This document shows positions 3,615-39,957 of a stretch of DNA of 42,894 bases, piece by piece. The first letter of the stretch is position 1, and each line of letters begins with the position of its first letter. Below the pieces are notes generated by a model. It saw only the letters and a list, made by a program, of their open reading frames with translations, ran no database searches and had not been told where the DNA came from. This stretch comes from Acidobacteriota bacterium (GTDB lineage Bacteria; Acidobacteriota; Terriglobia; Acidiferrales; UBA7541): positions 1 through 42,894 of the forward strand of contig QHYQ01000134.1 in assembly GCA_003224175.1 (NCBI GenBank), read 5' to 3'. The position numbers were made by a program, and so were the translations under genes.

Positions 3615-3815
3615 CAGCAAGCCGCGCGGGCCGTCTGTGGAAGAAAGTAGTTGTTGAAGGTATCCGGGAACAGCAGAACGTGGTTGCCGTCTGTGCCCAG
3701 CGGTTTTGTTTCTGCGGCGAAACCATTGCGTGAAAGGCTCGGGCGCGAACTGAGGAATCTTGCGCTGTGGCGCCATTCCGGCCAGCCATTTTGCGATTTC
3801 GCGCGTGCCCGACGT
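3615..3815 (-). pseudogene. remnant of a GlcD/GlcF-type FAD/Fe-S oxidase (linker and start of CCG domain)
   Basis: Reading down the minus strand, one frame gives EIAKWLAGMAPQRKIPQFAP then EPFTQWFRRRN. The next frame continues GTDGNHVLLFPDTFNNYF and LPQTARAA before a stop. This is the linker plus the start of the first cysteine-rich (CCG) domain of long FAD/Fe-S oxidases. The LLFPDTFNNYF stretch matches VVLWPDTFTNYF in the larger gene at 27.7-30.5 kb of this window. The piece has a frameshift near 3700 and no flanking FAD or Fe-S domains, so it is a fossil of a second, divergent copy. About 65 codons survive. Confidence 0.65.
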
Positions 3816-3829
3816 TGCGATCGGTTAAG

Positions 3830-3922
3830 GTGCAGGAGTTGGTTACGCGTTATATCATCTCGATGAAGGGCTATACGGCACGGGAGAAAATGAGCGACGC
3901 GATTGCCGGAACTGAATCGTAA
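3830..3922 (+). pseudogene. C-terminal fragment of an unidentified gene upstream of the thiolase
   Basis: A 30-codon frame (VQELVTRYIISMKGYTAREK, then MSDAIAGTES) ends at 3922, only 4 bases before the thiolase ATG, as the last part of an upstream operon partner would. The frame is open a little further upstream but soon runs into the antisense Fe-S oxidase remnant. I cannot assign the family. The body of the gene seems to be missing. Confidence 0.35.
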
Positions 3923-3926
3923 CTCT

Positions 3927-4905
3927 ATGTCAGTTGCCTATATTTGCGAGGGGTTTCGCACTCCCATCGGCCGCTACGGCGGCGCCCTAGCCCAGATCCG
4001 CACCGATGACTTAGCAGCAGTGCCGCTCGCGGCTCTGCGGGAGTGGAGTGGAAAGTATGAGCCGCGCGCCGATGGTCATTCCAAAGGCGTACTCCGCGTT
4101 TTCCAGAACTGCGGAGATTTACGACACCACCATCGGATGGCGCTTCGTGAATCCGGAACTAGCGAAAAAGTATGGCACCGCCTCTATGCCAGAGACAGCC
4201 GAGAACGTCGCGGCCGCTTATCGGATTGACCGATGCTCGCAGGACAAATTCGCTCTTCGCTCGCAGCAGAGGGCTGCCACCGCTCAGAGGGCCGGAATCC
4301 TCGCCCAAGAGATCGTGCCTGTTCATGTTTCGCAACCTAAGGGGCCTTGCAAAGTCGTATCCCAGGATGAGCATTTACGGCCGGACACGACCATCGAGGC
4401 GCTTGCGAAATTGCCGACGCCATTCCGGGAAGGCGGCACGGTAACCGCCGGAAACGCATCTGGGATTAACGATGGCGCCTGCGCGATCTTCGTGGCTTCG
4501 GAAGCCGCAGCTTCCCGTTTTGGATTGACTCCCATGGCTCGCGTCATCGGTACAGCTGCGGCGGGCGTGCCACCCGATGTCATGGGTATCGGCCCGATTC
4601 CTGCCATCCAGAAGTTGCTCGGACGATTCAATTTGAAAATGGATGATATGGATGTCGTGGAAGTCAACGAAGCCTTTGCGGCGCAGGTGCTTGCCGTAAT
4701 TCGTGCCTTCAGCCTGCCTGATGATTGCGAGAAGGTAAATCCAAATGGCGGTGCGATCGCGCTGGGACATCCTCTCGGCATGAGTGGTGCCCGTCTGGTT
4801 CTGACCGCCGGCAGGCAACTGCAGCGCATCCAGGGGCGCTACGCGCTGGCAGCGATGTGCATTGGTGTGGGGCAGGGCATTGCGATCTTATTGGCGCAAC
4901 CCTGA
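3927..4905 (+). pseudogene. acetyl-CoA acyltransferase (thiolase, PcaF/PaaJ-like) with active-site segment deleted
   Basis: The start (MSVAYICEGFRTPIGRYGGA) and everything from VESMSRAP to the C-terminus match thiolases of the beta-ketoadipyl-CoA/3-oxoadipyl-CoA type. Family members are about 400 residues. Here about 75-80 codons between LAALRE (~4040) and GVESMSRAP (~4042) are absent, and the frame changes at the junction. The lost stretch normally holds the nucleophilic Cys (NRLCGSG). The downstream part keeps the other catalytic motifs: NEAFAAQ, GGAIALGHPLG with the His, and CIGVGQG with the second Cys. The C-terminal part could be translated from the GTG at 4048, but without the nucleophile it could not catalyse thiolysis. 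The native role would have been cleavage of 3-oxoacyl-CoA in aromatic or fatty-acid breakdown. Confidence 0.85.
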
Positions 4906-5023
4906 AAGGTGGCGCGCTCGTGAGGCTGATTAAGACCTCACTCCCGTGTCGATCTACGTTGACGTGGCTCTATTGAACCTGGACGAACAGGGATGTTCTT
5001 GCGCCCCTTGAAACTGACGCCGA

Positions 5024-6490
5024 TCATGCAGAGCGCCGCAGGTAGGACCGGAGATGCCGCGTGCGCGGCGCCTCTCGCAGCGTCCGCAGAGCTTGAGCTT
5101 CGATCTGGCGGGTACGTTCCCGGGTGACTCCCAGGCAGCGGCCCACCTCCTCAAGCGTATGTTCATCTCCGTCTTCCAGCCCGAAACGCATGCGGATGAC
5201 CTTCGCCTCCCGGGGCGTGAGCTCATTTAGCATATCGATCGCGTGCTTCCTTAGATTGCGATCGATTACGGCCTCGGAAGGAGACGCGGCTTGCTTGTCT
5301 TCGATGAAATCGCCGAGATGGGATTCCCCATCGGCTCCGATGCGGGTTTCCAGGGAGAGCGGCTCCTGTGCGATCTTCATCAGTTCCCGAACTTTCTCAA
5401 TCGGGAGACCGAGGCGTTGGGCAATCTCATGCGAAGTGGGTTGACGCCCCAGTGCTTTGACCAACTCGCGGTTTGCCTGCATGAACCTGTTAATATGCTC
5501 GATCATATGTACAGGTACACGGATTGTGCGAGCCTGGTCAGCAATGGACCGAGTGATAGCCTGGCGAATCCACCATGTGGCATAAGTCGAGAATTTGAAT
5601 CCGCGACGCCATTCGAATTTCTCTACGGCTCTCATCAATCCGATATTGCCCTCTTGAATTAAATCAAGAAAAGTCATACCGCGGTTGAGGTATCGCTTGG
5701 CTATGGATACAACCAGGCGGAGATTGGCCTCCGTCATCTGTTTCTTAGCATGCTCCGCAATCGCTTCGCCTTTGCGGATCCCCAGCAGCAATCGCTTTTC
5801 CTCACCCACACTCAAGGGATAGTTCTCGGCACGCAAGGCCCGCCTAAATCGGCGCGCGCCGCCCTTTGAATGCGCAACCGATTCTTCTAGCGCCCGGCGG
5901 GTCAGTTCGACGAGGCGCGCTCTCTCGAGCGGAGTGAACTTGAGCGAGTTCATAAGCCGCGAGATGCGGACACGTAAGCGCGCGAGCGCCCATGTGTGCC
6001 GCCCTGAGGCGGATCGCTTGAGCTGCCGGCGTTGACGGCGCGCCAAGGAGTAGAGCCGCGCTGCCTCCGCAGTGATCTTTAACGTTCGCTTGAGTTCGGC
6101 CTTCTCGGCCGAGGGCCCATCGCTCTCGATTTGTATGACATTTTTGATCCGACGCGTGCCATCGCGGAGTCCCTCGGCCGTGCGAAGCAGCGCTTCGATG
6201 CCAACCGGCGAACGCGAAACGGCTGTCATGACCATCTTTTCTCCGCGCTCAATTTGTTTTGCGAGAGCCACCTCTTGCTCGCGCTTCAACAGAGGCACGG
6301 CCCCAAGTGCCGCCAAATAGATGCGCACCGGATCGTAGGTATCGTCTTGGCCCGGCGCGTATTCGGTCTCGTCCTCATCGAGCGAAGGCCTTCCCGCAGA
6401 GCTGTCGTGGGATTCCGACAAGCTGCCGGACTTCAGGACGTCTTCATATTCGTCCTCTCTCAAACGCCGAAGGTTATCTATGAGTCCCAT
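5024..6490 (-). CDS. RpoD-like sigma-70 family RNA polymerase sigma factor
   Basis: The protein is 488 residues when started at the ATG at 6490 ([13 protein letters not shown]); GTGAGG lies 12 bases upstream. A GTG start at 6508 would add 6 residues. Visible regions are 1.2 ([17 protein letters not shown]) and a long basic non-conserved spacer. Region 2 includes [38 protein letters not shown] and [15 protein letters not shown]. Region 3 starts near [10 protein letters not shown], and region 4 has [15 protein letters not shown] and the [22 protein letters not shown]. Compared with housekeeping RpoD it lacks a long region 1.1 and has Thr in RERTRQIE, where Ile is usual. It could be the principal sigma factor or an RpoD-like paralogue, which cannot be decided from this window alone. 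It is transcribed toward the thiolase remnant. Confidence 0.92.
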
Positions 6491-6735
6491 GATTCTAGGT
6501 TGCCTCACGTTTCGTCTTCAGACAAGCCGCCGGTAGACGAGATCTCGCCCTCGGGCCGATATTTATAGATAAATCAGTGAGATGCGGAGCTTAGCTGCCC
6601 GGTCGACCCTGAAGTTCCAATACGGCCTTTTGGTTAGATGCGGCGGCACAATAAAAGATGCACCTGATTATTCGATTGCGTGTTACATCTTCTCCGGTAT
6701 TGTTTGCGGGGAGCCTGCTTCCTAGGCTAGAGCCA

Positions 6736-7611
6736 ATGCCCTACGTCCGGACTGTGCCGTTGATTCTGTTTTGTCTGCTTCGACCACCGGTAGTCGGAGC
6801 GGTGGCCCAATCCTCCCAAACTGCAACGGAAGCTCACCTGAATGCACAAGCGTTGGTTCAGGAAGTGGTGGAAAATGGACTTCGCCAGAAAAATAGGGAG
6901 CAAGCTCACTGGAGTTATCGTGAAGTGGTTCGTAAGGACGGAAGGTTAGAAACCCGCCAAGTCTGTCAGACGAATACAGGAACCATTGACCGGCTTGTTG
7001 CTATCAATGATCAGCCCCTGTCAGCGGAGCAGCAAAGGCGGGAGGAGGCACGCGTCCAAACGTTGCTCGCTGACCCCAACGAAATCCGCAAAGAGAGGCA
7101 AAAACAGCGGGACGATTCCGCAAGGCAATTCCGAATGTTTGCGACGTTCCCTGACGCGTTCCGCTATGAATATGCCGGTCGCGAGGGAGGGCTGGTCAAG
7201 TTAACGTTTGAACCTAATCCACAGTTTGTTCCCAGCAGCCGTCAAGAGGACGTCTTCCACCATCTAGAAGGGATGATGTGGATCAACCCGGACCAAAAGC
7301 AATTGGCGCGAATCGACGGCCGGCTCACAAGTGAAGTCAAGTTTGCCGGCGGACTGCTCGGGCATTTGGACAAGGGCGGAGTCTTTTCCGTCCGATTCAG
7401 GCAACTGAATTCAGGTCAGTGGGTGATGGTTGCGCTTCGTGTTGAGATTAGCGGGAAGGCTTTGCTCTTCAAAACAATCTCGGTCGACGAACAGAGGGAC
7501 TTCGACGATTACCGGCGTGTCCCTGATAACTTCACGCTGCAGCAAGCGGCCAAGCTAGTAGGGAAGCCAGAGGGTTCGCCTAGGCAAACCGCCGAAAATA
7601 CCCCGAAATAA
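6736..7611 (+). CDS. exported hypothetical protein
   Basis: Starting at the ATG at 6736 gives 291 residues with a signal peptide (MPYVRTVPLILFCLLRPPVV, then GAVAQ). An upstream in-frame ATG at 6658 would add 26 residues and bury the signal. The mature part begins with a charged, probably helical region (about 30-130, many Gln/Arg/Glu) and then a beta-rich part (~140-270). It includes FPDAFRYEYAGREGGLVKL and MMWINPDQKQLARIDGRL. The layout recalls periplasmic LolA/outer-membrane-lipoprotein-sorting-like folds of acidobacteria, but this is only a resemblance. It faces the metallo-beta-lactamase-fold gene convergently. Function is unknown. Confidence 0.75.
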   Translation: MPYVRTVPLILFCLLRPPVVGAVAQSSQTATEAHLNAQALVQEVVENGLRQKNREQAHWSYREVVRKDGRLETRQVCQTNTGTIDRLVAINDQPLSAEQQRREEARVQTLLADPNEIRKERQKQRDDSARQFRMFATFPDAFRYEYAGREGGLVKLTFEPNPQFVPSSRQEDVFHHLEGMMWINPDQKQLARIDGRLTSEVKFAGGLLGHLDKGGVFSVRFRQLNSGQWVMVALRVEISGKALLFKTISVDEQRDFDDYRRVPDNFTLQQAAKLVGKPEGSPRQTAENTPK

Positions 7612-7681
7612 GAGACCGTCGCCCGAAGGAATCCTTCTCGCCGAGAAGAGCCACGCGCATTTCTGTCTCGCGCTCCGCTCT

Positions 7682-8965: not shown

Positions 8966-8983
8966 GAAGCCTCCCCGGGGCGG

Positions 8984-8989
8984 ATTATA
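8984..8989 (-). promoter_or_regulatory. -10 box TATAAT for the MBL-cytochrome gene
   Basis: On the minus strand TATAAT lies 18 bases before the ATG at 8965, with the GGGGAGG ribosome-binding site between them. This gives the gene its own promoter, downstream of the DUF6152 gene. No clear -35 box is seen. Confidence 0.5.
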
Positions 8990-9033
8990 CGTGTGCGAGG
9001 CTTTCAGGTGAAGCACCCTGACTTAAGCAATCG

Positions 9034-9429
9034 TCAGGGGCCGTACGCTTTGCCGTAGCACATCAGCTCGCGGCCATTTGCCAGTACCACCTTCGACAGG
9101 CGCAGCTTGTACGTGCCGTCGCCGATGCGATTACCTACGATCGTGATCTGATCGCCTGGATGAAGCGTGTCTTTGGTCCAGCCCGCATTAGCCATGCGGC
9201 TGGGGCTCGGACCGCCGGCACTCCATTTCTCGACCTCGCCCCTGTCGTTTTTCACGTCCAGATCCATCCACACATGAGGATTTCCGAAATCGAACCCGGT
9301 CACGGTGCCTGTCATCGAGGTGAGATGTTTCATATCGTAGCTGCGCCAAGCGTGATGGGCGAAGACAGGAGCAGCCGCGAGCAGCAGGGAAAAAGCAAAT
9401 GCAACGAGTGTCAAAAGCTTGGTTCTCAT
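9034..9429 (-). CDS. DUF6152 family exported protein
   Basis: The 131-residue protein has a signal peptide (MRTKLLTLVAFAFSLLLAAA, cleaved after VFA). A mature part follows that begins HHAWRSYDMKHLTSMTGTVT and contains NPHVWMDLDV and a short OB-like beta pattern (KDTLHPGDQITIVGNRI). This is the signature of the DUF6152 family, common in acidobacteria and proteobacteria. Its members are exported, and their biochemical role is unknown. The HHAW start may bind metal, which is inference. AAGAGG lies before the ATG and a TATAGT box (minus strand, 9456-9451) further upstream. It is 68 bases upstream of the MBL-cytochrome gene on the same strand, so the two may work together in the periplasm. Confidence 0.85.
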   Translation of the reverse strand: MRTKLLTLVAFAFSLLLAAAPVFAHHAWRSYDMKHLTSMTGTVTGFDFGNPHVWMDLDVKNDRGEVEKWSAGGPSPSRMANAGWTKDTLHPGDQITIVGNRIGDGTYKLRLSKVVLANGRELMCYGKAYGP

Positions 9430-9687
9430 ATTCGACGCCTCTTGAATGCGACTATATCATTGACGCGTTTGTCTAAGGTCGGGTTTCCGCCCTTCACTAA
9501 CCTTACTGACCGGTTCACGATCAGGAATCTTGATCGGGATGCGGCGTTAGACTGGGACGATAGTGTGCGCGTTGCAGGCTGATTGAGTAGAATGGGTCCT
9601 TGTGCAGATTGGCGGTCCCAGCCACGATGATTTAGGAAATGGATATAGCAGCGCCGAATAGTCCCAACGCAAAGGAGGAGTGAGTTC

Positions 9688-12823: not shown

Positions 12824-15403
12824 ATGCCGATCCGCATTATCCCCGCCTCATTAATCATCTTGAGTGCCTTCTCTTCCAGCTTCGCGGAGGCGCCGCGAGG
12901 TATTCCGCGAGAACTCGCGAGGCAGCGTGCCGCACAGATCTCCAATGTCAGGTATCGCCTGGCATTTGTATTCGTCCCGAAGGCGGCCACAACTTCGGGT
13001 GAAGAAGAAGTCCGTTTCAGACTGAAGACGCTTGAGCCTGTGCTCCTGGATTTCCGCGACGGCCAGCTGCTCAGCGCGTCCGTGAACGGCGCAGCACTGA
13101 TGTTGAAACGCGAGAACGGGCATTTGGAGCTGCCCAGGGACAAGCTGCAAGCAGGAGAGAATACGATCCGCATTCGCTTTGCCGTGCCCATTGCCGGAGC
13201 AGGCAAGCCGCTCACCCGATTCGAGGACCACGACGATAGCAGCGAATATATCTACAGCCTGTTTGTACCTATGGATGCGAGCATGGCTTTTCCATGCTTC
13301 GATCAACCAGACCTGAAGGGCCGTTTTACCCTGGAAATGACCGCACCGGAGACCTGGACAGTCATTTCCAACACGGCAGTCGAAAGCGTCGCCTCTGTTG
13401 GCCCTGAGCAAAGGCGCACCCGATTCGCCGAGACGCCTCCTATCAGCACTTATCTGTTTGCGTTTGCCGCCGGACCATTTCAAAAGCTGCTCACATCGCA
13501 GGGCACACCGGCGCTCTATGTGCGCAAATCGAAGTTCGAGCGCGCGCAGACCGAGGCTCCCGAGGTACAGCAGATCGCTGCTCGGGGCTTGCAATACCTC
13601 TCCGATTTTTTCGCACAGCCATTCCCATTTACAAAGTATGACATGGTGCTCATTCCCGGTCTGGCCTACGGCGGCATGGAACACGCCGGCGCCACCTTCC
13701 TGCGGGAAGAGTCGGTTCTGTTTCGGATCGCACCGGCGCACAGCGATCTGCTCAACCGCGACATCCTCGTCCTGCACGAGCTGACGCATCAATGGTTCGG
13801 GAATCTGGTGACGATGCGATGGTTTGACGACCTCTGGCTAAAAGAAGGATTCGCGCAATACATGGCTTATCAGACACTCGCGGCGGTCAGGCCCCAAGAG
13901 AACGTCTGGAAGCGGTTTTATGAATCAATTAAGCCGGATGCCTACGCCATTGATTCCACAAAGGGCACAACTCCCATTTATCAGGAGATTCCCAACCTCG
14001 AGGATGCGAAATCGGCGTATGGGGCTATCGTTTACTCGAAAGCCCCTGCCGTATTGAAGCAGCTCAATTTCGTCTTGGGGGCAGACAAATTTCGGCAGGG
14101 TCTCCAGCTTTACCTGAGGGAGCATGCTTTCGGCAATGCCGAATGGAACGATCTGCTACACGCACTCGAGCGCGTATCGGGCAAGCCGCTCGACAATTGG
14201 GGCGAGATGTGGATCCGTCATCGCGGCATGGCGCAAGTGGATGTCTCCTGGTCCTGCGAGGGAAACCAGCTGAGCAGGCTTTCGCTGTCGCAGCACGACG
14301 TTTTGGGTTCGGCGGACGTTTGGCCGTTGGCAATGCAGCTTGGGCTGAACTACGCAAATCGCGACCCTGTCTTGATGCGAGTGGACCTGAAGGGCAAAAC
14401 CCTCCGAGTTCCGGATTTGCATGGTGCAGAATGCCCAAGCTTCATTTTTGCCAATGAACAGGACTACGCCTACGGCCGCTTTCTGCTCGATCCGCGGAGC
14501 CGCGAAGGCGCGGTCCGCCAGCTGGGCGAAATACAAGACCTGTTTCGTCGCACGCTGCTTTGGGGTTCGTTGTGGGATTCAGTGCGCACTTCCGAACTAG
14601 CCCCGCGCGACTATCTAGTACTGACGCTGAGAGTTCTACCCGCGGAGCCTGACGAAACGCTCGCGCGCAGCTTGCTTTCGCATTCTGCGACGGCGCTGCA
14701 CCGCTATGTGAGCCCCGTCGCGCGCAGTCAATACGTCCCGCAATTCGAAGCTCTGGCGGCAGACCGCATGTTGCATTCGACGAATGCGGACTTGCGGATT
14801 GTGTGGTTTCGGGGCCTCGAAGCAATCACAGAAACGCCGCAAGGGCTCGCAAGATTGAATGAAATCTTGAGTGGCCAACTTGCCGTGCCCGGCGTGGAGC
14901 TTCGCGCGCTGGACCGGTGGAATCTCGTGACCGCGCTGCTGGCCCATGGTGGCCCTGAGGCCGAGTCGATCTTCACCGCCGAAAGGCAGCGCGATCCAAG
15001 CGGAGATGGGCAAAAATACGCGTATGTTGCGGAAGCCGCACGGCCCCACGCAGCTATCAAGCTGCGGTATTTCAAGGACTTTTTGCACAATTCCTCTCGT
15101 CCGGAAGATTGGATCGAACAGTGCCTCTATGCCTTCAATTATTGGAGCCAGTCAGAGCTTACGGCACCATACCTGAGAGAGGCCCTCGAAGCTCTTCCAC
15201 AGATCAAGCGCGAACGTAAAATCTTTTTTCTCGTAGACTGGCTCAGCGCATTCATAGATGGCCAACAGTCCCCAGCAGCCCAGGCCGAAGTCTATGCGTA
15301 CTTGGATTCAGGTGGGATTGATGACGACCTGCGGTTGAAAATCCTCCAGGCGGTGGACGAACTTGATAGAACGGTCGCCATCCGGCGGAAATTCCTCCAC
15401 TAG
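12824..15403 (+). CDS. exported M1 family zinc aminopeptidase
   Basis: The 859-residue protein starts with a signal peptide (MPIRIIPASLIILSAFSSSF, then AEA). The catalytic domain carries HELTHQ (318-323) with the third zinc ligand Glu341 in WLKEGFAQY. The substrate-recognition motif usually written GAMEN reads GGMEH. The N-terminal beta domain has the family's DQPDLKGRF segment, and the last ~350 residues form the helical C-terminal domain. M1 enzymes remove N-terminal residues from peptides; the signal suggests action in the periplasm. The start was chosen because the signal peptide begins there and a TATACT box lies 11 bases upstream. A longer start at 12767 would bury the signal. Asn-to-His in the exopeptidase motif may shift specificity. 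Confidence 0.93.
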   Translation: MPIRIIPASLIILSAFSSSFAEAPRGIPRELARQRAAQISNVRYRLAFVFVPKAATTSGEEEVRFRLKTLEPVLLDFRDGQLLSASVNGAALMLKRENGHLELPRDKLQAGENTIRIRFAVPIAGAGKPLTRFEDHDDSSEYIYSLFVPMDASMAFPCFDQPDLKGRFTLEMTAPETWTVISNTAVESVASVGPEQRRTRFAETPPISTYLFAFAAGPFQKLLTSQGTPALYVRKSKFERAQTEAPEVQQIAARGLQYLSDFFAQPFPFTKYDMVLIPGLAYGGMEHAGATFLREESVLFRIAPAHSDLLNRDILVLHELTHQWFGNLVTMRWFDDLWLKEGFAQYMAYQTLAAVRPQENVWKRFYESIKPDAYAIDSTKGTTPIYQEIPNLEDAKSAYGAIVYSKAPAVLKQLNFVLGADKFRQGLQLYLREHAFGNAEWNDLLHALERVSGKPLDNWGEMWIRHRGMAQVDVSWSCEGNQLSRLSLSQHDVLGSADVWPLAMQLGLNYANRDPVLMRVDLKGKTLRVPDLHGAECPSFIFANEQDYAYGRFLLDPRSREGAVRQLGEIQDLFRRTLLWGSLWDSVRTSELAPRDYLVLTLRVLPAEPDETLARSLLSHSATALHRYVSPVARSQYVPQFEALAADRMLHSTNADLRIVWFRGLEAITETPQGLARLNEILSGQLAVPGVELRALDRWNLVTALLAHGGPEAESIFTAERQRDPSGDGQKYAYVAEAARPHAAIKLRYFKDFLHNSSRPEDWIEQCLYAFNYWSQSELTAPYLREALEALPQIKRERKIFFLVDWLSAFIDGQQSPAAQAEVYAYLDSGGIDDDLRLKILQAVDELDRTVAIRRKFLH

Positions 15404-15430: not shown

Positions 15431-16162
15431 GCACTCGCAAACCCGGTATTTACCTTAGGGGCTCTTTCAAGCCTGCTTAACCTGCTTAGGGTATCGAGTG
15501 CGAGCCGCAAAACTAGTAATTTCGTCGTCGACCGCCCGTGCGAGAATTTCTGGGATCGCGTACAGTCCTGGCAAAGGCGAGGATGGACGCTCGGCCTGCA
15601 CGGATATCAACACTGCTATTTGACCAGAAGGGCAGGATTGTATGGCCGATCAGCCCTGAGGGAATTTGCGGGACTGCCTTACGAGGTGCAGGAGATCAAA
15701 CTGCAAAATGCGGCGAGGATCTTTCATGAACACGGGGTAAAGCCCGACGTGTGGGTGGCGCCTGCGCACTCCTTCGATACCAACACGATCGACATTTTGT
15801 TGAGAATGGGCGTGCACATGGTTAACGATGGCTACGCGCTTTATCCCTACGCAGACGAGCGCGGCATGATCTGGATTCCACAACAGGTGGGGCGATTTAG
15901 AAACCTGCCCATCGGCATATGGACTATATGTTTTCACTTCAACCGCTGGAGTGACGAGGACCTGCGACGGTTCCGCGCCGATTTGCAGCGATTCAGGCCG
16001 CACATTCTTTCGGTAGGCGATGTCCTCCAGTTTTGTAAGCGCCGCAAGACTTGGGTGCATGCGGGGGCCGCCCGGCTGCTGGATGCCGGCCTGCGCATCG
16101 GCAGACCGCTCCGGGAGTGCCTGAAGCCGATGAACTGGCAGGCATGGTCAAAGATTCCGTGA
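15431..16162 (+). pseudogene. DUF2334-type polysaccharide deacetylase-like protein lacking its N-terminus
   Basis: An open frame follows a stop at 15428 and has no ATG, GTG or TTG in the first stretch. Recognisable homology begins at FVVDRPCENFWDRVQSWQRR (~15521) and continues through GWTLGLHGYQH, EFAGLPYE, WVAPAHSFD and PIGIWTICFHFN to the stop at 16160-16162. In this family the His in LHGYxH and the PAHSFD motif line the metal site. The first metal-binding Asp residues lie in the N-terminal ~55 residues, which are missing. An internal TTG or GTG could start a shorter product (one GTG is at 15538 but out of frame). Its stop overlaps the ATG of the next gene (TGATG), so the 3' end is in its native place. 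It is probably a 5'-deleted gene. Confidence 0.7.
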
Positions 16163-19263: not shown

Positions 19264-19790
19264 TCAGAACGCGCTGGCAGGGGGGCGGAGGGCAATACCT
19301 GCATCTCTTAGGCGCTGTACGACCGCGGCCGCGATCTTTAGGGCTCCCGGAGTGTCGCCATGGATGCAAATCGTCTGTGCCTTGACTCGAATTTTCGTGC
19401 TGTCTCCGGCAATGACGATGCCATTTTCAGCAATACCCAATGCCTGAGCGGCGGCTTCAGCGGGATTCAGAATTAAAGCATCGGCGAACTTACGCGATCG
19501 CAGTGAGCCTTGTGGATCATATCGTCGATCCGCAAAGGCCTCTGCCGCGGCGGCAAAGCCGACGCTGCGAAAAACGTCGAGCATTGGCGATCCCGCGAGG
19601 CCCACAAGGACTACATCGCGTCGCCACCGCGCCACACCATTGGCTATGGCCGCAGCAATCGATGCATCTCCCGCGGCCTGATTGTAGAGCGCGCCGTGCG
19701 CTTTAACGTGAGAAATGCGGGCGCCGCATTTCGCGGCTATCTCGGCTGAGGCATTTCGCCCATATCGCAATTCAAGTCGATCGACTTCAC
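19264..19790 (-). pseudogene. pxpA: pxpA (5-oxoprolinase subunit A, LamB/YcsF family) with internal deletion and frameshift
   Basis: A GTG at 19790 overlaps the TGA of pxpC (GTGA) and encodes VKSIDLNCDMGE, the usual PxpA N-terminus. After about 12 codons the sequence jumps, in another frame, to SAEIAAKCGARISHVKAHGA (from ~19745). It then runs to a normal C-terminus at 19264. Compared with the ~245-residue family, roughly 75-80 codons are missing, including the segment with the first metal-site histidines. A shorter product from TTG at 19770 (168 aa) could be made but would lack half of the TIM-like fold. PxpABC performs ATP-dependent cleavage of 5-oxoproline to glutamate, so this complex is probably non-functional unless another pxpA exists. 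Confidence 0.85.
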
Positions 19791-24401: not shown

Positions 24402-24458
24402 GACTTCCGCTCGACGCTGCCCTCAGTCATTTCTTTTCAGGTGGGTGCTCTGCCCGTG

Positions 24459-26404: not shown

Positions 26405-27727
26405 ATGTCCGAGTCACAAACAGTCGCGACGCCGCAACGAAAGGGCCTTCCGGCTACCACGACCGTCCTCATTTTGCTCTGCTTGATGTATGCGATTAAT
26501 TACATCGTCAGAGTGAACGTGAGCACCGCGGCCGCCGCATTTAAGGACGAGCTGCACCTGAGCAATACTGATTTGGGCTGGATCTTCTCTGCATTCGCTT
26601 ATCCGTACCTGCTTTTTCAAATCATCAGCGGCTGGGTGAGCGATCGTGTGGGACCGCGCACGACGCTCACGGTGTGTGCGGCAATCTGGTCCGCGGCGAC
26701 CGTATTCATGGGTTTGGCCGGTGGCATGTCGGCGATGGTGTTTGGGCGCGTTATGCTCGGCGTCGGCGTCTCGGCCTTACCAACAGCTACCCGCGCGATG
26801 TCGGCGTGGATGCCCGAGGGCAAGCGAGCATTTGCGCAGGGAATCACGCATTCGGCGGCTCGGGTCGGAAATATGGTGACGCCTCCCCTCGTGGCCTGGC
26901 TAATTGTGCTGGTGGCGTGGCGAGGTTCGTTCGTCGTCCTCGGAATCGCGAGCTTCGGTTGGGCAATCTTGTGGGGTTGGTATTTTCGTGATAACCCCGC
27001 AGACCATCCGGCGATCACGCCTGCAGAGCTCGAAATGCTCCCAAAGGCTCGGTCGCGTAAAGCGTACAAGACCGAGCCGGTTCCCTTCTTTCGATTGGCC
27101 CGCCGCATGGCTTTAGTGACCGCAGTCTATTTTTGCTACGGCTGGACCCTGTGGTTTTTCCTCGCCTGGATACCCCAGTATTTTCTGCACAGTTACAAGT
27201 TGCGCCTGAGCAATTCGTCGCTGTTTGCTGCGGGTGTCTTTCTTGGCGGCGTGCTGGGCGACGTCTTGGGTGGTGTCGCCAGCGATCGTATTTTTGAAAA
27301 GACGGGCGATCGTAAGAAAGCGCGGCGCAACCTCGTCGTATTCGGATTTCTCTGTTCACTTGTGATGATGATCCCGATCATCCTTCTTCACAATTTGACC
27401 TCCGCAGCCATTTTTTTGGGCCTGGCGTTCTTTTTCGCGGAATTCACGGTCGCTCCGATGTGGGCGATTCCCATGGATATCGCTCCGAAGTTCTCCGGCT
27501 TTGCCAGCGGTTTTATGAATTCCGGATCGGCATTAGCGGCGATCATCTCGCCAGTTTTGGCGGGCATGATCATCGATCGAACGGGTAACTGGGAGTTGCC
27601 TTTCGTGGGCAGCATCGCTCTGCTGTTGTTTGGAGCGATCCTCGCGCTTTGGATGAAAACTGAGGAAATGCCTTCCGAGCCCAGTGCGAGCGCAAAAGCC
27701 GCCGTGCAACCGGCTGTCTCGTCATGA
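26405..27727 (+). CDS. MFS transporter, ACS (anion:cation symporter) family
   Basis: The 440-residue protein has about 12 helices. NYIVRVNVSTAAAAFKDEL in helix 1 and SGWVSDRVGPRTTL as motif A are typical of the ACS family, which moves organic anions such as glucarate, galactonate, glycerate or tartrate. It lies 42 bases after the aminotransferase, and its stop overlaps the next gene's ATG (ATGA), so the three genes form an operon. A C2-C3 hydroxy-acid such as glycolate or glycerate is a plausible substrate by context only. A hydrophilic Ala/Ser-rich tail ends the protein. Confidence 0.9.
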   Translation: MSESQTVATPQRKGLPATTTVLILLCLMYAINYIVRVNVSTAAAAFKDELHLSNTDLGWIFSAFAYPYLLFQIISGWVSDRVGPRTTLTVCAAIWSAATVFMGLAGGMSAMVFGRVMLGVGVSALPTATRAMSAWMPEGKRAFAQGITHSAARVGNMVTPPLVAWLIVLVAWRGSFVVLGIASFGWAILWGWYFRDNPADHPAITPAELEMLPKARSRKAYKTEPVPFFRLARRMALVTAVYFCYGWTLWFFLAWIPQYFLHSYKLRLSNSSLFAAGVFLGGVLGDVLGGVASDRIFEKTGDRKKARRNLVVFGFLCSLVMMIPIILLHNLTSAAIFLGLAFFFAEFTVAPMWAIPMDIAPKFSGFASGFMNSGSALAAIISPVLAGMIIDRTGNWELPFVGSIALLLFGAILALWMKTEEMPSEPSASAKAAVQPAVSS

Positions 27728-30512
27728 ATCCAGTCATCTGGGGCTCCACAACGCCTCTGAAGCCACTTGCTCCTCTCCCGCTCAGCTCGCATGCCAAGCC
27801 CGTCGATTCGTTTGCACGGGCGGCGGAGTTGGAGGAAGAGCTCCAAAAAACTGTCAAGGGGGAAGTGCGCTTCGACCGTGGCAGTCGCGCGCTTTACGCC
27901 GCGGATGCCTCCAACTATCGTCAAATTCCTATTGGCCTCGTGGTTCCGCGGGACGAAGACGACGTGATCGCTAGCGTAGCCGCATGTAGAAAGCATGGCG
28001 CCCCGGTTTTGCCCCGCGGGGCCGGCACGAGCCTTGCTGGCCAGTGCTGCAACGTCGCGGTTGTGCTCGATTTCACCAAATACATGAATCGAATCCTGGA
28101 GCTTGATCCGAACGCCAGAGTTGCGCGCGCTCAGCCGGGAGTTGTTCTGGACCGCCTGCGCGAGCGTGCCGAAATTCAGCATCTGACCTTTGGCCCCGAT
28201 CCTTCCACCCACAGCCGATGCACGCTGGGGGGAATGATCGGGAATAATTCCTGCGGAACCCACTCGTTACTTGCCGGCAAGACTGTCGATAACGTCGAAG
28301 AACTCCGCGTTGTGCTTTACGATGGCACGCAATTGACCGTTGGCGCGACCTCAGAAGGTGAGCTGAATTCCATCATTGCTCGAGGTGGCCGGGGCGGAGA
28401 GATCTATGCAAAGCTCCGAGTCATTCGCGATCAGTACGGCCCTCTCATTCGCGCGCGTTATCCGAAAATTCCCCGGCGCGTCTCCGGCTACAACCTGGAC
28501 CAACTTCTTCCGGAAAACGGTTTCCATGTGGCCCGGGCGCTGGTCGGCACCGAAGGCACATGCGTCACTGTGCTCGAAGCCAAACTCCGCCTGATTCACA
28601 GCCCCCAGCACAGGACTTTAGTTGGATTGGGCTATCCCGACGTCTTCATTGCCGCCGAACAGGTGCCCGCGATCCTGGAATTTGGCCCTATAGGACTCGA
28701 AGGATTTGAAGGCCGCATCGTGGACGGGCTCCGCAAGAAAGGCACGCCTAATCTCGAACTGCTTCCCGAAGGAAGAGGAATCCTGCTCGTCGAATTCGGC
28801 TGTGATGATCCGAAGCAGGCTGAGGCGCTGGCCCTAAAACTCGCCGATCGGTTCAGAGGATCCTCGGGAGTGCCGGATATCCGTCTTTACAACGATAGCC
28901 AGGCCAAATGGGTCTGGAAGATACGCGAATCCGGGGCGCGCGCAGCTGCGGCGGCGCCGGGAGCGCCTCCGGAGTGGGAAGGCTGGGACGACGCCGCGGT
29001 CGCTCCCGAAAAAGTGAGCGCCTATCTTCGGGATATCCGCAAGCTCCTCGACGAGTACAACTACAACGCCGCGTTCTACGGCCATTTCGGGCACGGCTGC
29101 ATTCACATGCGCGTTAGCTTCGATCTGGAGAGCGAATCCGGCATTCGCAACTACGGGGAATTCGTAGAACGCGCTGCCGACCTCGTGGTCAGCTACGGCG
29201 GCTCCCTTTCGGGTGAGCACGGGGATGGGCAGTCTCGCGGCGCATTGCTGCCGAAAATGTTTGGGCCAGAGTTGGTAAAGGCGTTTGGCGAGTTCAAAGC
29301 TGCTTGGGATCCGGACAATAAGATGAATCCCAATAAAGTCGTAAATGCCTATTTGCCGACCGAAAATCTGCGCTTAGGAGCGGACTACAAGCCGCACGCG
29401 GCAAAAACTCATTTTCACTTCCCGGATGACGGCGGTTCCTTTGCCAAAGCCACGGTGCGTTGCGTGGGCCTCGGCGAATGCCGCAAAACGCATGCGGGCG
29501 CGATGTGCCCCAGCTACATGGTGACCCTGGAGGAGCAGCACAGCACTCGCGGGCGCGCTCACATGCTTTTTGAGCTGTTGCAGGGCGAGGTGGTTCGCGA
29601 CGCTTGGCAAGATGAACACGTCAAGAAGGCGTTGGATCTTTGTCTTTCCTGTAAGGCGTGCAAATCGGAGTGTCCCACCAACGTGGATATCGCCACTTAT
29701 CGCGCCGAATTCATGCACGAAGATCGTCGGCCGCGCCCGGCTCAGAGTCCCCGAGGCAGACCCCCGGCGCGAATGGGCGCACGGTCGTTTTGTGGCCCGA
29801 TACCTTTACCAATTACTTTCATCCCGAGATCGGCCGCGCCGCGCTCGAAGTTCTGGAGGGAGCTGGATTTCAAGTGATGATTCCGCAGTCGCAACTGTGT
29901 TGTGGCCGGCCGCTCTACGATTTTGGAATGCTCGACCGCGCCAAGGAATATCTCAGCCGAGTCATGCAATTGTTGGGAGCTGAAATCGACGCGGGCGTGC
30001 CGATAGTAGTGCTGGAGCCAAGTTGCGCCTCGGTCTTTCGAGACGAGTTGCGCGGCCTCTTTCCGGAAGATTCGCGGGCCAAACGCTTACGGGAGCAAAC
30101 TTTTCTCTTGAGCCAATTTTTGCGCTCTTATAACCCCGGCTATAAACCTCCTGTCCTTCATCGCAAAGTGCTGCTGCATGGACATTGTCACCATAAGGCA
30201 CTGATGACTCTCACCGATGAAGAAGCCCTGCTGCGGAGCATGAGCGTCGAATTGGAGTCTCTCGATTCGGGCTGCTGCGGGATGGCCGGCTCATTTGGAT
30301 TCGAGCGCGAGAAATACGAAATTTCCCGCGCAGTGGGAGAAAGGGTGCTTTTGCCCGCGGTAAGAGGAGCCGCGCCCGAAACCCTCATCGTCTCCGATGG
30401 TTTCAGTTGCCGCGAGCAGATCGCCCAGCTTACGGGGCGAAGAGCTTTCCACCTGGCCGAGATACTAAAACTGGCAGCGACCCTATCGCGGTCGGCAAAT
30501 CCGGAACTCTAA
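27724..30512 (+). pseudogene. GlcD/GlcF-type FAD/Fe-S glycolate or D-lactate oxidase, linker deleted and frameshifted
   Basis: The first frame (27724-29877) holds a complete FAD-binding domain (RGAGTSLAGQC, TLGGMIGNNSCGTHS) and FAD-oxidase C-terminal domain (HFGHGCIHMR, GSLSGEHGDGQSRG). Two ferredoxin-type clusters follow (GLGECRK...AMCPSYM and CLSCKACKSECP). It is in register up to YRAEFMHE (~29721). From about 29745 another frame continues with GRTVVLWPDTFTNYF and both CCG domains (CCGRPLYDFGM, GHCHHKA...GCCGMAG) to 30512. Comparable fused oxidases have about 80-85 residues between the YRAEFM and WPDTF motifs; here about 25 remain, in two frames. So roughly 55-60 codons are missing. The downstream part lacks a native start. 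The enzyme would oxidise glycolate or D-lactate; this copy probably yields only a GlcD-like half. It overlaps the MFS gene by ATGA. Confidence 0.85.
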
Positions 30513-33469: not shown

Positions 33470-33475
33470 TAAACT
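33470..33475 (+). promoter_or_regulatory. -10-like box TAAACT before the flavoprotein gene
   Basis: TAAACT lies 11 bases before the ATG at 33487. The spacing matches the TATACT boxes elsewhere and supports this start over the later in-frame ATG at 33514. Confidence 0.3.
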
Positions 33476-33486
33476 GCCTCAAACAA

Positions 33487-34680: not shown

Positions 34681-34708
34681 GCCGGATCTATATTGGCTCC
34701 ATCCATCT

Positions 34709-35305: not shown

Positions 35306-35346
35306 CGAGGATCACCAAGCCACCATCAAGGAGGGAAGTACCGCCG

Positions 35347-35940
35347 CTACGCGCGCAGCCGAGCAGGTCCGCTGACGCAAGGATTACCGCGTTCGTAAAA
35401 ACGAAATCGCCGGTGAGCCGCGCGTGTAATTCCAATGCGCACGCTCTTGCCGACTGCCTTCGGCGGCCAAGCTGCCGTGCCCAGCCACAACGGCCCTGCG
35501 ACGCAAAGGTCGGCGCCATCATAGCGCTTATCAATTTGTAATGCAGCGGCCAGCCGGCCCGGTCCTCGCGCCACATCGCAAATCCGCACAGCCTTGCGAT
35601 TCCTGCGCTGCATTACCTCGAAGCCTTCTAGCGGCTCGAGGCCACGCACGAGGACGCCACCGCCAACGCCCCGCTCTTCGCTCGTGACGTTCAGGAGCCA
35701 ACAGGAGCCATACGCGAAATACACGTAGGCATGCCCGCGCTTTAGAAATAGCGAGCGGTTGCGGGGCGTCTCGCCGCGAAAGGCGTGTCCGGCCGCGTCT
35801 CCGGGCGGATAGGCTTCCGTCTCCACGATGCGCCCGCTGATGCGGCCCTCGGGAAGATCGTGCACCAGAGTCTTGCCAACCAGAAATCGCGCGAGTTCCA
35901 GCGTTGCTGTGGGAAGCTCACTCCGGCGCAAGCGCCGCAC
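35347..35940 (-). CDS. mpg: DNA-3-methyladenine glycosylase (Mpg/AAG family)
   Basis: Read from GTG 35940, the protein is 197 residues and begins RRLRRSELPTATLELARFLV like other Mpg proteins. A GTG at 35991 would add 17 residues. Landmarks are ISGRIVETEAYPPGDAAGHA with the catalytic Glu, RNRSLFLKRGHAYVYFAYGS, WLLNVTSEERGVGGGVLVRG and GPGRLAAALQI. The enzyme excises alkylated purines in base-excision repair. It diverges from rpiA, with 76 bases between the starts. It is complete. Confidence 0.92.
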   Translation of the reverse strand: MRRLRRSELPTATLELARFLVGKTLVHDLPEGRISGRIVETEAYPPGDAAGHAFRGETPRNRSLFLKRGHAYVYFAYGSCWLLNVTSEERGVGGGVLVRGLEPLEGFEVMQRRNRKAVRICDVARGPGRLAAALQIDKRYDGADLCVAGPLWLGTAAWPPKAVGKSVRIGITRAAHRRFRFYERGNPCVSGPARLRA

Positions 35941-36016
35941 GCGAACGCTTCTCGAGCTGCTTCGGCCGGCCTTTTCGGGTAATCGCCGCACGCCATTCGA
36001 GTATATCCTTGCAATT

Positions 36017-36769
36017 GTGCGATCTTCAGAAACAAGTGAACAGCTCGAAGAAGAAAAACAGGCTGCCGCACGGGCGGCGTTGCGATACGTTCGCAGCAAT
36101 ATGCTCCTTGGCCTGGGCACCGGATCAACGGCGAACTTTTTTCTGAGCTTCCTCGCTGAAGCAGTGCGCCAGGGAGAACTCAAGATAGACGCCGTGTCTT
36201 CTTCTCTGCAGACAGCGGCCCGGGCCAAAGAGCTCGGCATAAGGATTTGTGAACCGCGGCGCGGAGTTCGCGTTGACCTCACGATCGACGGTGCTGACGA
36301 AATCGCTCCGGATCTGAGCTTGATCAAGGGTGCAGGGGGCGCGCTGCTACGCGAGAAAATTCTGGCCCGGGCGTCGCGCCACTTTGTAGTCATCGCGGAC
36401 TCTTCCAAACGTGTTGCTCGCCTTGGCCGGCGCCGCGTCCCCTTAGAAGTCACACCCTTCGCCACTCCATGGGTTATGGACGAGGTGGCGGAACTCGGAG
36501 GCAACCCCGTGTGGCGAATGGACAAGTTGAAACCGGACCGACCCTGCCTTACCGATCAACAAAATTACCTGGTGGATTGCGATTTTGGCCTTATTGCGGA
36601 CCCTCGCGGCTTAGCCACGAGGCTCAAGGAGATTTCCGGCGTCGTCGAACACGGATTATTTCTGGGCCTGGCCCATGCCGCTCTTATTGCCGAAGGCAAG
36701 GAGATTGTCGTACTACGTCCCCTGAAGCCACCTGCGCCCCTCGGTCAAAGCGACTTGGTTCTCGATTAG
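36017..36769 (+). CDS. rpiA: ribose-5-phosphate isomerase A
   Basis: The 250-residue protein begins at GTG 36017 (VRSSETSEQLEEEKQAAARA), with a TATATC box 9 bases upstream. Motifs of RpiA are clear: MLLGLGTGSTANFFL binds the phosphate, DLTIDGADEIAPDLSLIKGA holds catalytic Asp residues, and GGALLREKI and FVVIADSSKRV follow. It interconverts ribose-5-phosphate and ribulose-5-phosphate in the pentose phosphate pathway. The C-terminus is slightly longer than usual. Confidence 0.95.
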   Translation: MRSSETSEQLEEEKQAAARAALRYVRSNMLLGLGTGSTANFFLSFLAEAVRQGELKIDAVSSSLQTAARAKELGIRICEPRRGVRVDLTIDGADEIAPDLSLIKGAGGALLREKILARASRHFVVIADSSKRVARLGRRRVPLEVTPFATPWVMDEVAELGGNPVWRMDKLKPDRPCLTDQQNYLVDCDFGLIADPRGLATRLKEISGVVEHGLFLGLAHAALIAEGKEIVVLRPLKPPAPLGQSDLVLD

Positions 36770-37014
36770 CGGGGCGAGCCTCCACCTCCGCGATTGCTAA
36801 GAAGCGCCTGGTGGTGTAATTTGTCTCCCATGGCACCCTGTAGGTTCAGCACGGCGCATAGCGACTGCCCTGTCGCTATTGTCGGCCAACTTCATTAGGC
36901 GGCAGGCTCGGAACCTAGGGGTCGAATTCCAAACTGCCCGGTTTTGGAAAAGCCCACCGCCAAACCGAATGACGGTGCGCTGGGCTCTATTTTCGTTTTG
37001 AGGAGGTAAGCACA

Positions 37015-37881
37015 ATGGCTGAATATACACACCCGGAAGTCTTGGTATCCACCGAATGGGCTGCCCAGCACCTCAATGACCCGAAAGTTCGCTTGGTGGA
37101 AGTCGATGTTGACACAAGCGCTTACGATCAGGGCCATATTCCCGGCGCCGTAGGCTGGAACTGGCAGACGCAGCTTCAGGATAATATCCGTCGCGATTTG
37201 GTCACCAAATCGGCGCTTGAGCAGTTGCTGGGCCGGTCCGGCATCTCCAATGACACCACGATTCTCCTTTATGGCGACAACAACAATTGGTTCGCGGCTT
37301 ATGCTCTTTGGCAATTGAAGTATTACGGACATAAGGACGCGCGCCTGATCAACGGCGGACGCAAAAAATGGCTCGAGGAGAAACGCCCTTTGACCACTGA
37401 GTCTGCAAAGATAACTCCGGCAACTTACCACGCCGCTGGTCCGGATGAATCGATACGCGCTCGCAAGGAAGATGTATTCGCGATCGTCGAGAACCGCAAT
37501 CGCGGCCACCTGGTCGACGTGAGATCGGTCGACGAATTCACCGGAAAGATCATTGCGCCCCCGGGTATGAGCGAAACTGCGCAGCGCGGCGGCCATATTC
37601 CCACCGCCGCGAATGTGCCCTGGGCACAGGCTGCCAACGAGGACGGCACCTTCAAGACCGCGGACCAACTGCAGCAGCTCTATGGCTCCAAGGGCGTAAA
37701 CGGCAAAGATCAGGTCATTGCCTATTGCCGCATCGGCGAACGCAGCTCGCACACCTGGTTCGTCCTGAAGTATCTACTCGGCTACGATCGCGTGAAAAAT
37801 TACGACGGTTCATGGACCGAATGGGGAAATTTGGTGGGTGCACCCATCGAAAAAGAGAGTGTGGCCGCCACGGCCCGCTGA
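37015..37881 (+). CDS. thiosulfate sulfurtransferase (two-domain rhodanese)
   Basis: The 288-residue protein has two rhodanese domains. The first has an inactive-type loop (LLYGDNNNWFAAYALW). The second has the active Cys238 in YCRIGERSSHTWFVL. The N-terminal signature VEVDVDTSAYDQGHIPGAVG and the inter-domain HLVDVRSVDEFTGKI are typical. It moves sulfane sulfur from thiosulfate to cyanide or other thiophiles in the cytoplasm. A strong AGGAGG at 37001-37006 precedes the ATG. It is complete. Confidence 0.95.
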   Translation: MAEYTHPEVLVSTEWAAQHLNDPKVRLVEVDVDTSAYDQGHIPGAVGWNWQTQLQDNIRRDLVTKSALEQLLGRSGISNDTTILLYGDNNNWFAAYALWQLKYYGHKDARLINGGRKKWLEEKRPLTTESAKITPATYHAAGPDESIRARKEDVFAIVENRNRGHLVDVRSVDEFTGKIIAPPGMSETAQRGGHIPTAANVPWAQAANEDGTFKTADQLQQLYGSKGVNGKDQVIAYCRIGERSSHTWFVLKYLLGYDRVKNYDGSWTEWGNLVGAPIEKESVAATAR

Positions 37882-37947
37882 GCACTCCCCGCCGGCGCTT
37901 CTGGCACATCCTTCTTTGGCGCGGTACTCTAGCGCCGAAGGAGGATC

Positions 37948-38538
37948 ATGCTGCTACCAATCGTTCATGCCGGAGAGCCGGTTCTCCGTCAGCAAGCGCG
38001 TGCTCTTTCTCCGCGGGAAATCAGGAGCAAAGAGATACAGAAGTTGATTGAGCACATGCGCGAGACCATGCGCGGAGCGCCCGGCGTGGGCTTGGCAGCC
38101 CCGCAGATTGGCTTGTCTCTCCAGATGACCGTAATCGAAGACCGCAAGGAATACCACAAGGAAGTTTCAGCTGAGCAGTTGGCCCTGCGCGAGAGGCGGG
38201 CGGGCCCTTTTCACGTCGTCATCAATCCGCGAATCCGGAGCGCGGAGGACGATCAAGTGATTGAATTCTTCGAGGGCTGTCTCAGCTTGCCGGGATTTTT
38301 TGCACTGGTTCCTCGTTCCCGCAGCGTACGGGTAGAGTGTCTTGACCACCGTGGCCATTCTAAGACCATCGACGCTTCCGGCTGGTACGCACGAATTCTC
38401 CAGCATGAAATCGACCATCTCCGCGGCAATCTGTATATTGACCGCATGCACAGCCGCTCCTTCAGCTCCAGGGAAAATTGGGAGAAGTTTTGGAAGGGCA
38501 AGCCTATCGGCGAAGTTCGCTCCGAACTGGGCTGCTAG
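37948..38538 (+). CDS. def: peptide deformylase
   Basis: The 196-residue protein contains all three PDF motifs: GVGLAAPQIG (46-55), EGCLSLPG (109-116, metal ligand Cys111) and QHEIDHL (152-158, ligands His153 and His157). It removes the formyl group from nascent proteins. Its insertion between motifs 1 and 2 (DRKEYHKEVSAEQLALRERR) is longer than in the E. coli enzyme. An AAGGAGG site lies before the ATG. It is downstream of the sulfurtransferase on the same strand. Confidence 0.95.
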   Translation: MLLPIVHAGEPVLRQQARALSPREIRSKEIQKLIEHMRETMRGAPGVGLAAPQIGLSLQMTVIEDRKEYHKEVSAEQLALRERRAGPFHVVINPRIRSAEDDQVIEFFEGCLSLPGFFALVPRSRSVRVECLDHRGHSKTIDASGWYARILQHEIDHLRGNLYIDRMHSRSFSSRENWEKFWKGKPIGEVRSELGC

Positions 38539-38553
38539 CAAGTCTCGCCGGGC

Positions 38554-38940
38554 TCATTTGGGTTCATCCGGCTGCCACGGATCCATCCAGAAATCGAGCG
38601 ATAGCCACAAGCTGTAGGCCGGCCGCATCAGCAAGAGTGTTAGGGAAATGGCCAGGCAGGCCCAAAATGCGAATGCGAGGTTTTCTGAGAAGCTGCCCGC
38701 ACCCGGAAGTGCCAAAGATGCGACATATACACCCAGTACGATGAAGGCCGTGAGGATGTACGTGATGATCATGCCTCCAAGGTAGTAGCCTGATTCGCGG
38801 AAGTAGGAAAGCCCGCAATGAGGACATCTCGGCAGCACGCGATTCGGCCAGCCCCGAAAGACCCGACCCTGACGGCAATTGGGACACCGGCAGTGCAGCG
38901 CGTTAAGCAGAAGCTTGTAAAAGTTCGGCCCTCCCCTCAT
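38554..38940 (-). CDS. DUF983 family membrane protein
   Basis: The 128-residue protein from ATG 38940 has two zinc-ribbon-like Cys pairs, CRCPNCRQGRVFRG and CPHCGLSYFRESGYYLGG. Two membrane helices follow (MIITYILTAFIVLGVYVASL and FAFWACLAISLTLLLM). This is the DUF983 layout; its function is unknown, though it often sits near respiratory or envelope genes. A TATAAT box ends 6 bases before the ATG, so the message should be leaderless. An upstream in-frame start (38985) would overlap the chimeric ORF and put the promoter inside the gene. Confidence 0.85.
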   Translation of the reverse strand: MRGGPNFYKLLLNALHCRCPNCRQGRVFRGWPNRVLPRCPHCGLSYFRESGYYLGGMIITYILTAFIVLGVYVASLALPGAGSFSENLAFAFWACLAISLTLLLMRPAYSLWLSLDFWMDPWQPDEPK

Positions 38941-38946
38941 GGGGTC

Positions 38947-38952
38947 ATTATA
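38947..38952 (-). promoter_or_regulatory. -10 box TATAAT giving a leaderless transcript for DUF983
   Basis: TATAAT on the minus strand is followed by 6 bases and the ATG at 38940. This is the same spacing as at 33098-33093. No -35 consensus is seen 16-18 bases upstream. Confidence 0.55.
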
Positions 38953-38981
38953 TCGGTTGTGAGAAGATTTACGGCGCGCCT

Positions 38982-39206
38982 TCAAAACTTCTTGCGGATT
39001 GTGGCTTCGATGGCGAAGCTGCCGTATTCGTCACGCGTCAACGAGAGTGATAGTCGCCCTCCATCTGCCTCCGGCCGAGATGCCAGGTCGATAGCCGTAA
39101 CGTTTTCACCCTCGTAATTAACGCTCGGGACGGTTTGGCCGCGAGCCACGATTGTAGCCAAGATCAGGAAGATCACCGGAATGGCCAGAGAGGTAATAGT
39201 GGCCAA
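38982..39206 (-). pseudogene. chimeric short ORF: start of a POTRA outer-membrane protein joined to a beta-signal-like end
   Basis: The 74-residue frame starts with a hydrophobic, signal-like segment (SLAIPVIFLILATIVARG) and then QTVPSVNYEGENVTAIDLAS, like the first POTRA strand of BamA/TamA-type proteins. After RPEADGG it reads RLSLSLTRDEYGSFAIEATI and ends RKKF, an alternating pattern with terminal Phe as at the C-termini of TamB or outer-membrane barrels. A POTRA start and a barrel/TamB end only 20 residues apart suggest a large in-frame deletion joining two genes of an outer-membrane assembly pair. Family calls for both halves are inference. It overlaps the broken brkB end. Confidence 0.45.
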
Positions 39207-39957
39207 TGTGCCGAACGTAGAAATTCACGCCTGCAGTTCCCCCCACCAGGGTCACCGTCGCAAACACGGTGCCCGGGGTGATCCACCGCCATCGCCGCCG
39301 TTTATTTGGATGGACGTTGTCAATGATCGACACCCCGGCCTGCAGCAGCGTCAACAGGAAACACCATCGGAAAATCTCCCAGACGATGCGAACGGCCTGG
39401 CCAAAGTACAGCCGTGAGGAGAGAAAAACGCCCATACGATGGCCCACGGTCAGCAACCCGAAAGAGGCGAAGAAAAATGCCGAAGACACGACCAGGATAC
39501 CGATGGCGATCAGTCTTTTCTTCCAGAACCCGCGGGTCTCAGGAACGTTATAGATGCGGCTGAGGCTTTCCATCAGGGCGACCAGACCGGAGGAAGAAGC
39601 CCACACCGTAGCTATGAATCCTATGGAGAGAAAGGTCTTGTTCTTGTGGGCTAGATTCAATAGCGTCTGCAGTGCCAGGTCGCGCGCGTCTGACGGGAAA
39701 TGTCGAATGATCTCGTCGGTGACGTTGGTCCATAGATTTGTGTAAGGAAGGAATCCCGCCAGGGCTCCCAGTACTACAAAAAAGGGGAAGAGCGCGAGGA
39801 CAAAAAAATAGGCCGTTTGCGCAGCGAGATCGATTAAATCGTCCTTCGGAATTTTAGCCCAGATTTCGCGCAGAACTGCAAAGACCCCGTGTCTCTGCTG
39901 GCGGGCGATTATCGTGCCAGTCGGGTAAGATGCATGTGCGACGTTAGGTACCGACAC
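39118..39957 (-). CDS. YihY/BrkB family membrane protein with replaced C-terminus
   Basis: The frame gives 279 residues. Residues ~30-250 match YihY/BrkB: LAAQTAYFFVLALFPFFVVL, then TVWASSSGLVALMESLSRIY, RLIAIGILVVSSAFFFASFG, PGTVFATVTLVGGTAGVNFYV and RHIGHYY. In intact members one more membrane helix with a GAELNA-like end follows. Here the last ~24 residues (LSGHSGDLPDLGYNRGSRPN...) are hydrophilic and read out of frame across the signal segment of the neighbouring chimeric ORF. The last helix is lost, by a frameshift or by the same deletion that shaped that ORF. The native protein is a polytopic membrane protein of unclear function, once called RNase BN. The start at 39957 lies in a poorly conserved region and is uncertain. 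Confidence 0.75.
   Translation of the reverse strand: MSVPNVAHASYPTGTIIARQQRHGVFAVLREIWAKIPKDDLIDLAAQTAYFFVLALFPFFVVLGALAGFLPYTNLWTNVTDEIIRHFPSDARDLALQTLLNLAHKNKTFLSIGFIATVWASSSGLVALMESLSRIYNVPETRGFWKKRLIAIGILVVSSAFFFASFGLLTVGHRMGVFLSSRLYFGQAVRIVWEIFRWCFLLTLLQAGVSIIDNVHPNKRRRWRWITPGTVFATVTLVGGTAGVNFYVRHIGHYYLSGHSGDLPDLGYNRGSRPNRPER

Follow-up and report, generated by a model that had tools for sequence, protein, structure and literature searches.

Broken genes in the window

The window, that is, the whole 42,894-nucleotide stretch of DNA analysed here, is all of contig C195 of G000, a draft genome of 5.62 Mb in 624 contigs with 85% completeness and 3% contamination. The closest genomes to it in the search set, G001, G002 and G003, belong to its own genus. 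We aligned the window to contigs of G001 and G002 and to a second copy of part of it on contig C40 of G000. At six places the window has one block missing compared to G001/G002 (approximately 249, 227, 217-228, 241, 237 and 211-217 bp, in order of position). Judging from its homologues, brkB likely holds a seventh break, of unmeasured size as G001 and G002 are without this stretch. The features are as follows.

J1, positions 1855 to 1856, no strand assigned: 248-249 bp absent; present in G001:C18, G002:C334 and G000:C40; microhomology of 1 bp
J2, positions 3927 to 4905, plus strand: thiolase remnant broken at 4043/4045, with 227-228 bp (about 76 codons) missing
J3, positions 15431 to 16162, plus strand: DUF2334 remnant without a native start, with a jump near 16123-16147; net 217-228 bp absent relative to G002, with filler bases
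J4, positions 19264 to 19790, minus strand: pxpA (LamB/YcsF) remnant with a jump at 19745/19746; 239-241 bp absent relative to both G001 and G002
J5, positions 24437 to 24451, no strand assigned: 237 bp absent relative to G002:C297; about 13 poorly matching bases
J6, positions 27724 to 30512, plus strand: GlcD/GlcF-type FAD-oxidase / Fe-S / CCG remnant with a jump near 29712; net 211-217 bp absent relative to both relatives
Positions 39118 to 39957, minus strand: brkB remnant with a probable junction near 39196; C-terminus gone and another reading frame begun

J1, J2, J4 and J6 are each supported by two or three comparators, while the comparator for J5 is G002:C297 alone (no fetched G001 contig covers J5). 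In the relatives the thiolase is whole, within a 433-aa open reading frame (ORF), and the segment missing at J2 is found in G002:C334 as well as in the second copy on G000:C40. The second thiolase piece in the window begins at position 111 of the Thiolase_N profile (Pfam), and the missing segment encodes the motif NRLCGSG, which we take to be the carrier of the catalytic cysteine. The length of J2 comes from the pairwise window alignments, as the event-measuring step misplaced this junction (at 4027). At the place of pxpA, G001 and G002 both carry a 255-aa YcsF ORF; the microhomology at J4 is 1 bp against G002 and 3 bp against G001, and the lower value was counted. The oxidase is intact in G002 as a 998-aa ORF, and up to about 60 scrambled bases lie at the junction in the window. 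At J1, one small ORF lacks its end and the following ORF its beginning compared to the relatives; J5 removes the start of a 105-aa ORF together with intergenic bases.

The original prediction, made from the letters of the window, had named jumps of roughly 55-80 codons in the thiolase, pxpA and the oxidase. Comparison with genomes of the same genus bears out all three (227-228, 239-241 and net 211-217 bp), and the losses measured in the window, 70-83 codons, fall inside or just beyond that range. The measurement against intact homologues that it had suggested sized six window losses at approximately 211-249 bp, two of which, at 1855/1856 (249 bp) and near 24437 (237 bp), were absent from its list.

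Related losses had also been proposed for DUF2334 and brkB, and here the outcome is mixed. The DUF2334 gene does have a loss at its 3' end (J3, net 217-228 bp against G002), but it has no native 5' end, and the locus differs among G000, G001 and G002: the copy in G002 carries both stops and shifts, and most of the gene is missing from G001. Besides the jump at J3, true decay is therefore likely in part at this locus. For brkB, homology stops at residue 254 and two distant homologues continue for 44 residues, as a loss would have it, but its size is unmeasurable. At E <= 1e-40 brkB has a match in 2 of 30 relatives (37-42% identical) and in neither G001 nor G002. Some 1 kb here (38954-39938), comprising brkB and the beginning of the other frame, is missing at the same place in G001 and G002.

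Two further regions of the window deserve mention. At 9037-9667, a 209-aa ORF of G002 matches in two pieces with two stops, the downstream piece being a DUF6152 protein; this difference falls outside the 240-bp class. At 40299-42511 lie two adjacent NHL-repeat / beta-propeller genes; the G002 counterpart of either gene is about 60% identical to the other gene, and G002 has a tandem pair too.

Genomes compared and alignment rules

For a wider scan we used 873 kb of fetched G000 sequence on 82 contigs (whole or part), of which three consist only of Ns, and aligned it to 586 kb from G002 and 183 kb from G001. The G000 query bases covered amount to 175,832 against G002 and 114,642 against G001. 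Two rules were applied. The strict rule tolerated no more than 25 unaligned bases on the shorter side and dropped pieces below 76% identity or a bit score of 120; the looser rule allowed at most 80 unaligned bases and dropped pieces below 74% identity or a bit score of 90. The G000 contigs form a non-random sample, and the window was picked because losses were visible there.

Measured events were chosen by hand from the strict-rule and looser-rule scans. We excluded a difference on C171 near 15216-15245, where alternative pairings made it ambiguous, an untidy one of 182 bp on C71 near 11862, and smaller ones of 78-137 bp, also on C71. Three of the events kept (C3b, C171a and C36) have one flank each that matches poorly. 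Length and microhomology values were entered by hand for the statistics, with mid-values for J3 (222) and J6 (214).

Losses of the same size across the draft genome

Under the strict rule, G000 has 15 distinct losses of 200-300 bp compared to G001 or G002. The measured set comprises 22 events on 12 contigs including C195, so that the idea of losses peculiar to one 43-kb stretch proved wrong: 11 contigs of G000 besides C195 carry 16 of the losses. These are three on C3, three on C19, two on C8 (246 and 441 bp) and single events on C309, C71, C100, C171, C36, C39, C49 and C40 (414 bp). Net length lies between 211 and 282 bp in 20 of the 22, with a mean of 244 and a standard deviation of 20. A binomial probability for this clustering (1.6e-16) is given no weight, since its length band was set with the data in view. 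Seven of these 20 (J1, J2, J4, J6, C3c, C71 and C100) were measured against at least two comparators, and their lengths agree within a few bp. The two larger losses are those of 414 and 441 bp, and G002 is itself shorter at the 441-bp site. Mean length varies by contig (232 for C195, 265 for C3 and 265 for C19). The density is about one loss per 15 kb, with 12 distinct losses in the 175,832 bases covered against G002, on contigs that are a non-random sample.

Genes are touched on the other contigs, too. The three C19 losses fall within about 1.7 kb, at glycine-cleavage and AAA-ATPase genes; C19a straddles the gene border between two glycine-cleavage P-protein ORFs, and C19c touches the AAA ATPase. 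Elsewhere, the starts of a histidinol dehydrogenase (C3b) and of a CobQ-type gene (C49) are affected. When five of the lost segments were queried against the rest of G000, only the thiolase segment turned up, on C40, which is a divergent contig.

Contig C40 (L151) carries, at positions 1-4924, a second copy of window 1-4619 within the bin, 80-85% identical and complete at J1 and J2, whose segments it contains. This copy is either a contaminant from a sister species or a paralogous region.

The relatives compared with each other and in reverse

The same scan between the relatives gave a different picture. Under the strict rule, G001 against G002 in both directions, with 105,245 bases covered, yielded zero differences of 200-300 bp, and in the reverse comparison no 200-300 bp segment of G000 was missing from a relative. 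The looser rule returned untidy reverse differences on C309 (275 bp), C8 (206 bp) and C171 (192-198 bp, ambiguous pairing), in addition to one 185 bp difference between G001 and G002.

Properties of the junctions

Over the 17 cleaner junctions, microhomology averages 0.76 bp compared to 0.71 at random points, and it reaches at least 3 bp in one of the 17. The short flanking repeats that the original prediction had suggested looking for are thus absent beyond chance, and no direct repeats above that level flank the measured junctions. Loss length is divisible by three in 9 of 17 junctions (P 0.075), so frame preservation is not clear, and some breaks (J1, C19a) cross gene borders. Filler or poorly matching bases occur at J3, J5, J6 and C3a. 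Mismatches against the relatives, of which a rise would be expected beside junctions made from low-quality read ends, show no consistent increase there (J2 and C100 were not anchored against G002 in this comparison). The readable fetched G000 contigs hold a single run of Ns, eight long.

Two simple explanations can be set aside at this point. GC dropout is rejected as a cause, given that the GC content of 13 lost segments (0.52-0.63, against 0.57 overall) is ordinary. A gain of ~240-bp elements by the relatives is not supported for the thiolase and YcsF, where the lost segments complete conserved domains.

Selection on the remnant genes

Compared to G002, the thiolase pieces have a dN/dS of 0.08, the oxidase has 0.14 and the YcsF piece, over residues 96-254 only, has 0.20. 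These values fall in the range of the intact neighbours, and the pieces of all three genes contain no stops against G002. The three named genes are not decaying and are under normal purifying selection. If real, the losses would need to be both very recent and very many, at about one per 15 kb covered against G002, in a genome whose size is not reduced. Stops do occur in three other ORF comparisons: three in a 228-aa ORF beside J5, which may not be a true gene, two in a 352-aa ORF and two in the 209-aa ORF.

Origin of the missing segments

We consider the missing segments to be, with a probability of roughly 92%, errors of a short-read metagenome assembly in which flanks were joined and the approximately 240 bp between them omitted, rather than deletions in a living cell. 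This reading, drawn from sequence comparison, is favoured because losses of the same size recur on many G000 contigs and are not seen between the two closest relatives. In the comparisons made, the losses belong to one assembly, on 12 contigs, with one characteristic length, with no repeats beyond chance, with no regard for gene borders and with no clear preservation of frame. Of the origins that the original prediction had left open, it is accordingly the systematic assembly artefact that gains support. We infer that the assembly was a short-read one, that a software step is at fault and that the junctions would lack raw-read support.

The most likely step is a paired-end join. Flanking pieces would have been joined on paired-end evidence across an unsequenced or unassembled stretch, and the bases between the joined pieces, or the Ns standing for them, would have been dropped. 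The lost length would then track the mate distance in the library. Fused read pairs, dropped Ns and contig ends trimmed twice are candidate concrete causes that are not separable. Some observations pull the other way. The surviving run of eight Ns speaks a little against plain N-dropping, and the contig-dependent mean lengths are not simply predicted by one library. On the same side stand the lack of a consistent mismatch rise at the junctions, the few untidy differences under the looser rule, both in reverse and between G001 and G002, and the two larger losses of 414 and 441 bp.

Errors of this general kind have been described. The consulted sections of Chen et al. 2020 (PMC7111523) report local assembly errors in metagenome-assembled genomes, with the suspicion that these are prominent where IDBA-UD was the assembler, and also cover the scaffolding of gaps that paired reads span. 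Those of Diamond et al. 2019 (PMC6784897) give 250-bp paired reads and IDBA-UD assembly, with sample 14_0903_13_30cm processed via megahit and the IDBA-UD scaffolder. The losses in G000 resemble the local assembly and scaffold-gap errors in the former sections (Chen et al. 2020, PMC7111523) in that wrong sequence at joins leads to incomplete or incorrect protein-coding genes; compared to the errors as presented in those sections, however, they have one characteristic length and are nearly all without Ns. A search of an open-licence library found no account of this exact one-length signature.

Among the alternatives, an active, homology-independent cellular process could excise blocks of ~240-245 bp genome-wide, its action being too recent for the remnants to have decayed. 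The tight length distribution, the mostly clean ends and the spread over 12 contigs would suit such a process, and a cleanly missing segment with both flanks retained is also what repeat-mediated deletion in bacteria leaves behind. Unlike the latter, however, the junctions have no end repeats beyond chance and a single length class, and we know of no cellular process that excises blocks of ~240 bp without repeats. Moreover, the process would have to place three losses within about 1.7 kb on C19, yet in the window the thiolase, pxpA and the oxidase are under purifying selection, and 12 losses per 175,832 bases would mean hundreds of broken genes in the cell. With microhomology at chance level as well, we regard the active deletion process raised in the original prediction as unsupported and highly improbable.

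A second possibility is that the contigs are mosaics of close strains, with the pieces missing at the joins between strain variants. Soil metagenomes commonly contain mixed strains, and in this bin C40 does carry a copy of window 1-4619 with 80-85% identity. It is not obvious, however, how strain breaks by themselves would produce one characteristic loss length or joins free of homology, and we see little chance for mosaics as an outcome of their own; they would be a sub-cause of the assembly artefact.

Ordinary decay, through relaxed selection in a shrinking genome as had also been put forward, is the least probable origin: the variable DUF2334 locus in all three genomes and the stops in the 228-aa, 352-aa and 209-aa ORF comparisons are in its favour, and the truncated and frame-shifted genes recall the pseudogenes of reductive evolution, but the thiolase, oxidase and YcsF genes have neither stops nor signs of relaxed selection (dN/dS 0.08-0.20, like their intact neighbours) and are whole in relatives, the losses form a single length class with no broad spread, and the draft genome has 5.6 Mb.

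Consequences for the draft genome and its relatives

If the assembly reading holds, a draft that represents its species contains falsely broken genes, perhaps in the hundreds by crude extrapolation from 12 distinct losses per 175,832 bases covered. Conclusions from G000 that a gene is lost or a pathway absent would then be wrong, for example for the thiolase or for glycine cleavage. The signature itself (a single loss length, repeat-free flanks and one assembly) is easy to scan for in other drafts.

G002 has two losses of its own, of 62 and 75 bp. G001 has four compared to G002, of 64, 82, 84 and 116 bp, and one flank of the 64-bp loss matches poorly. They lie at L149 3346, L147 2128 and 6369, and L150 1638; among the genes whose counterparts are hit are a sigma-70 factor and the GlcD-type oxidase. 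These short losses in G001 are possibly the same kind of error at another length, and they hint at a problem that may extend beyond G000 alone.
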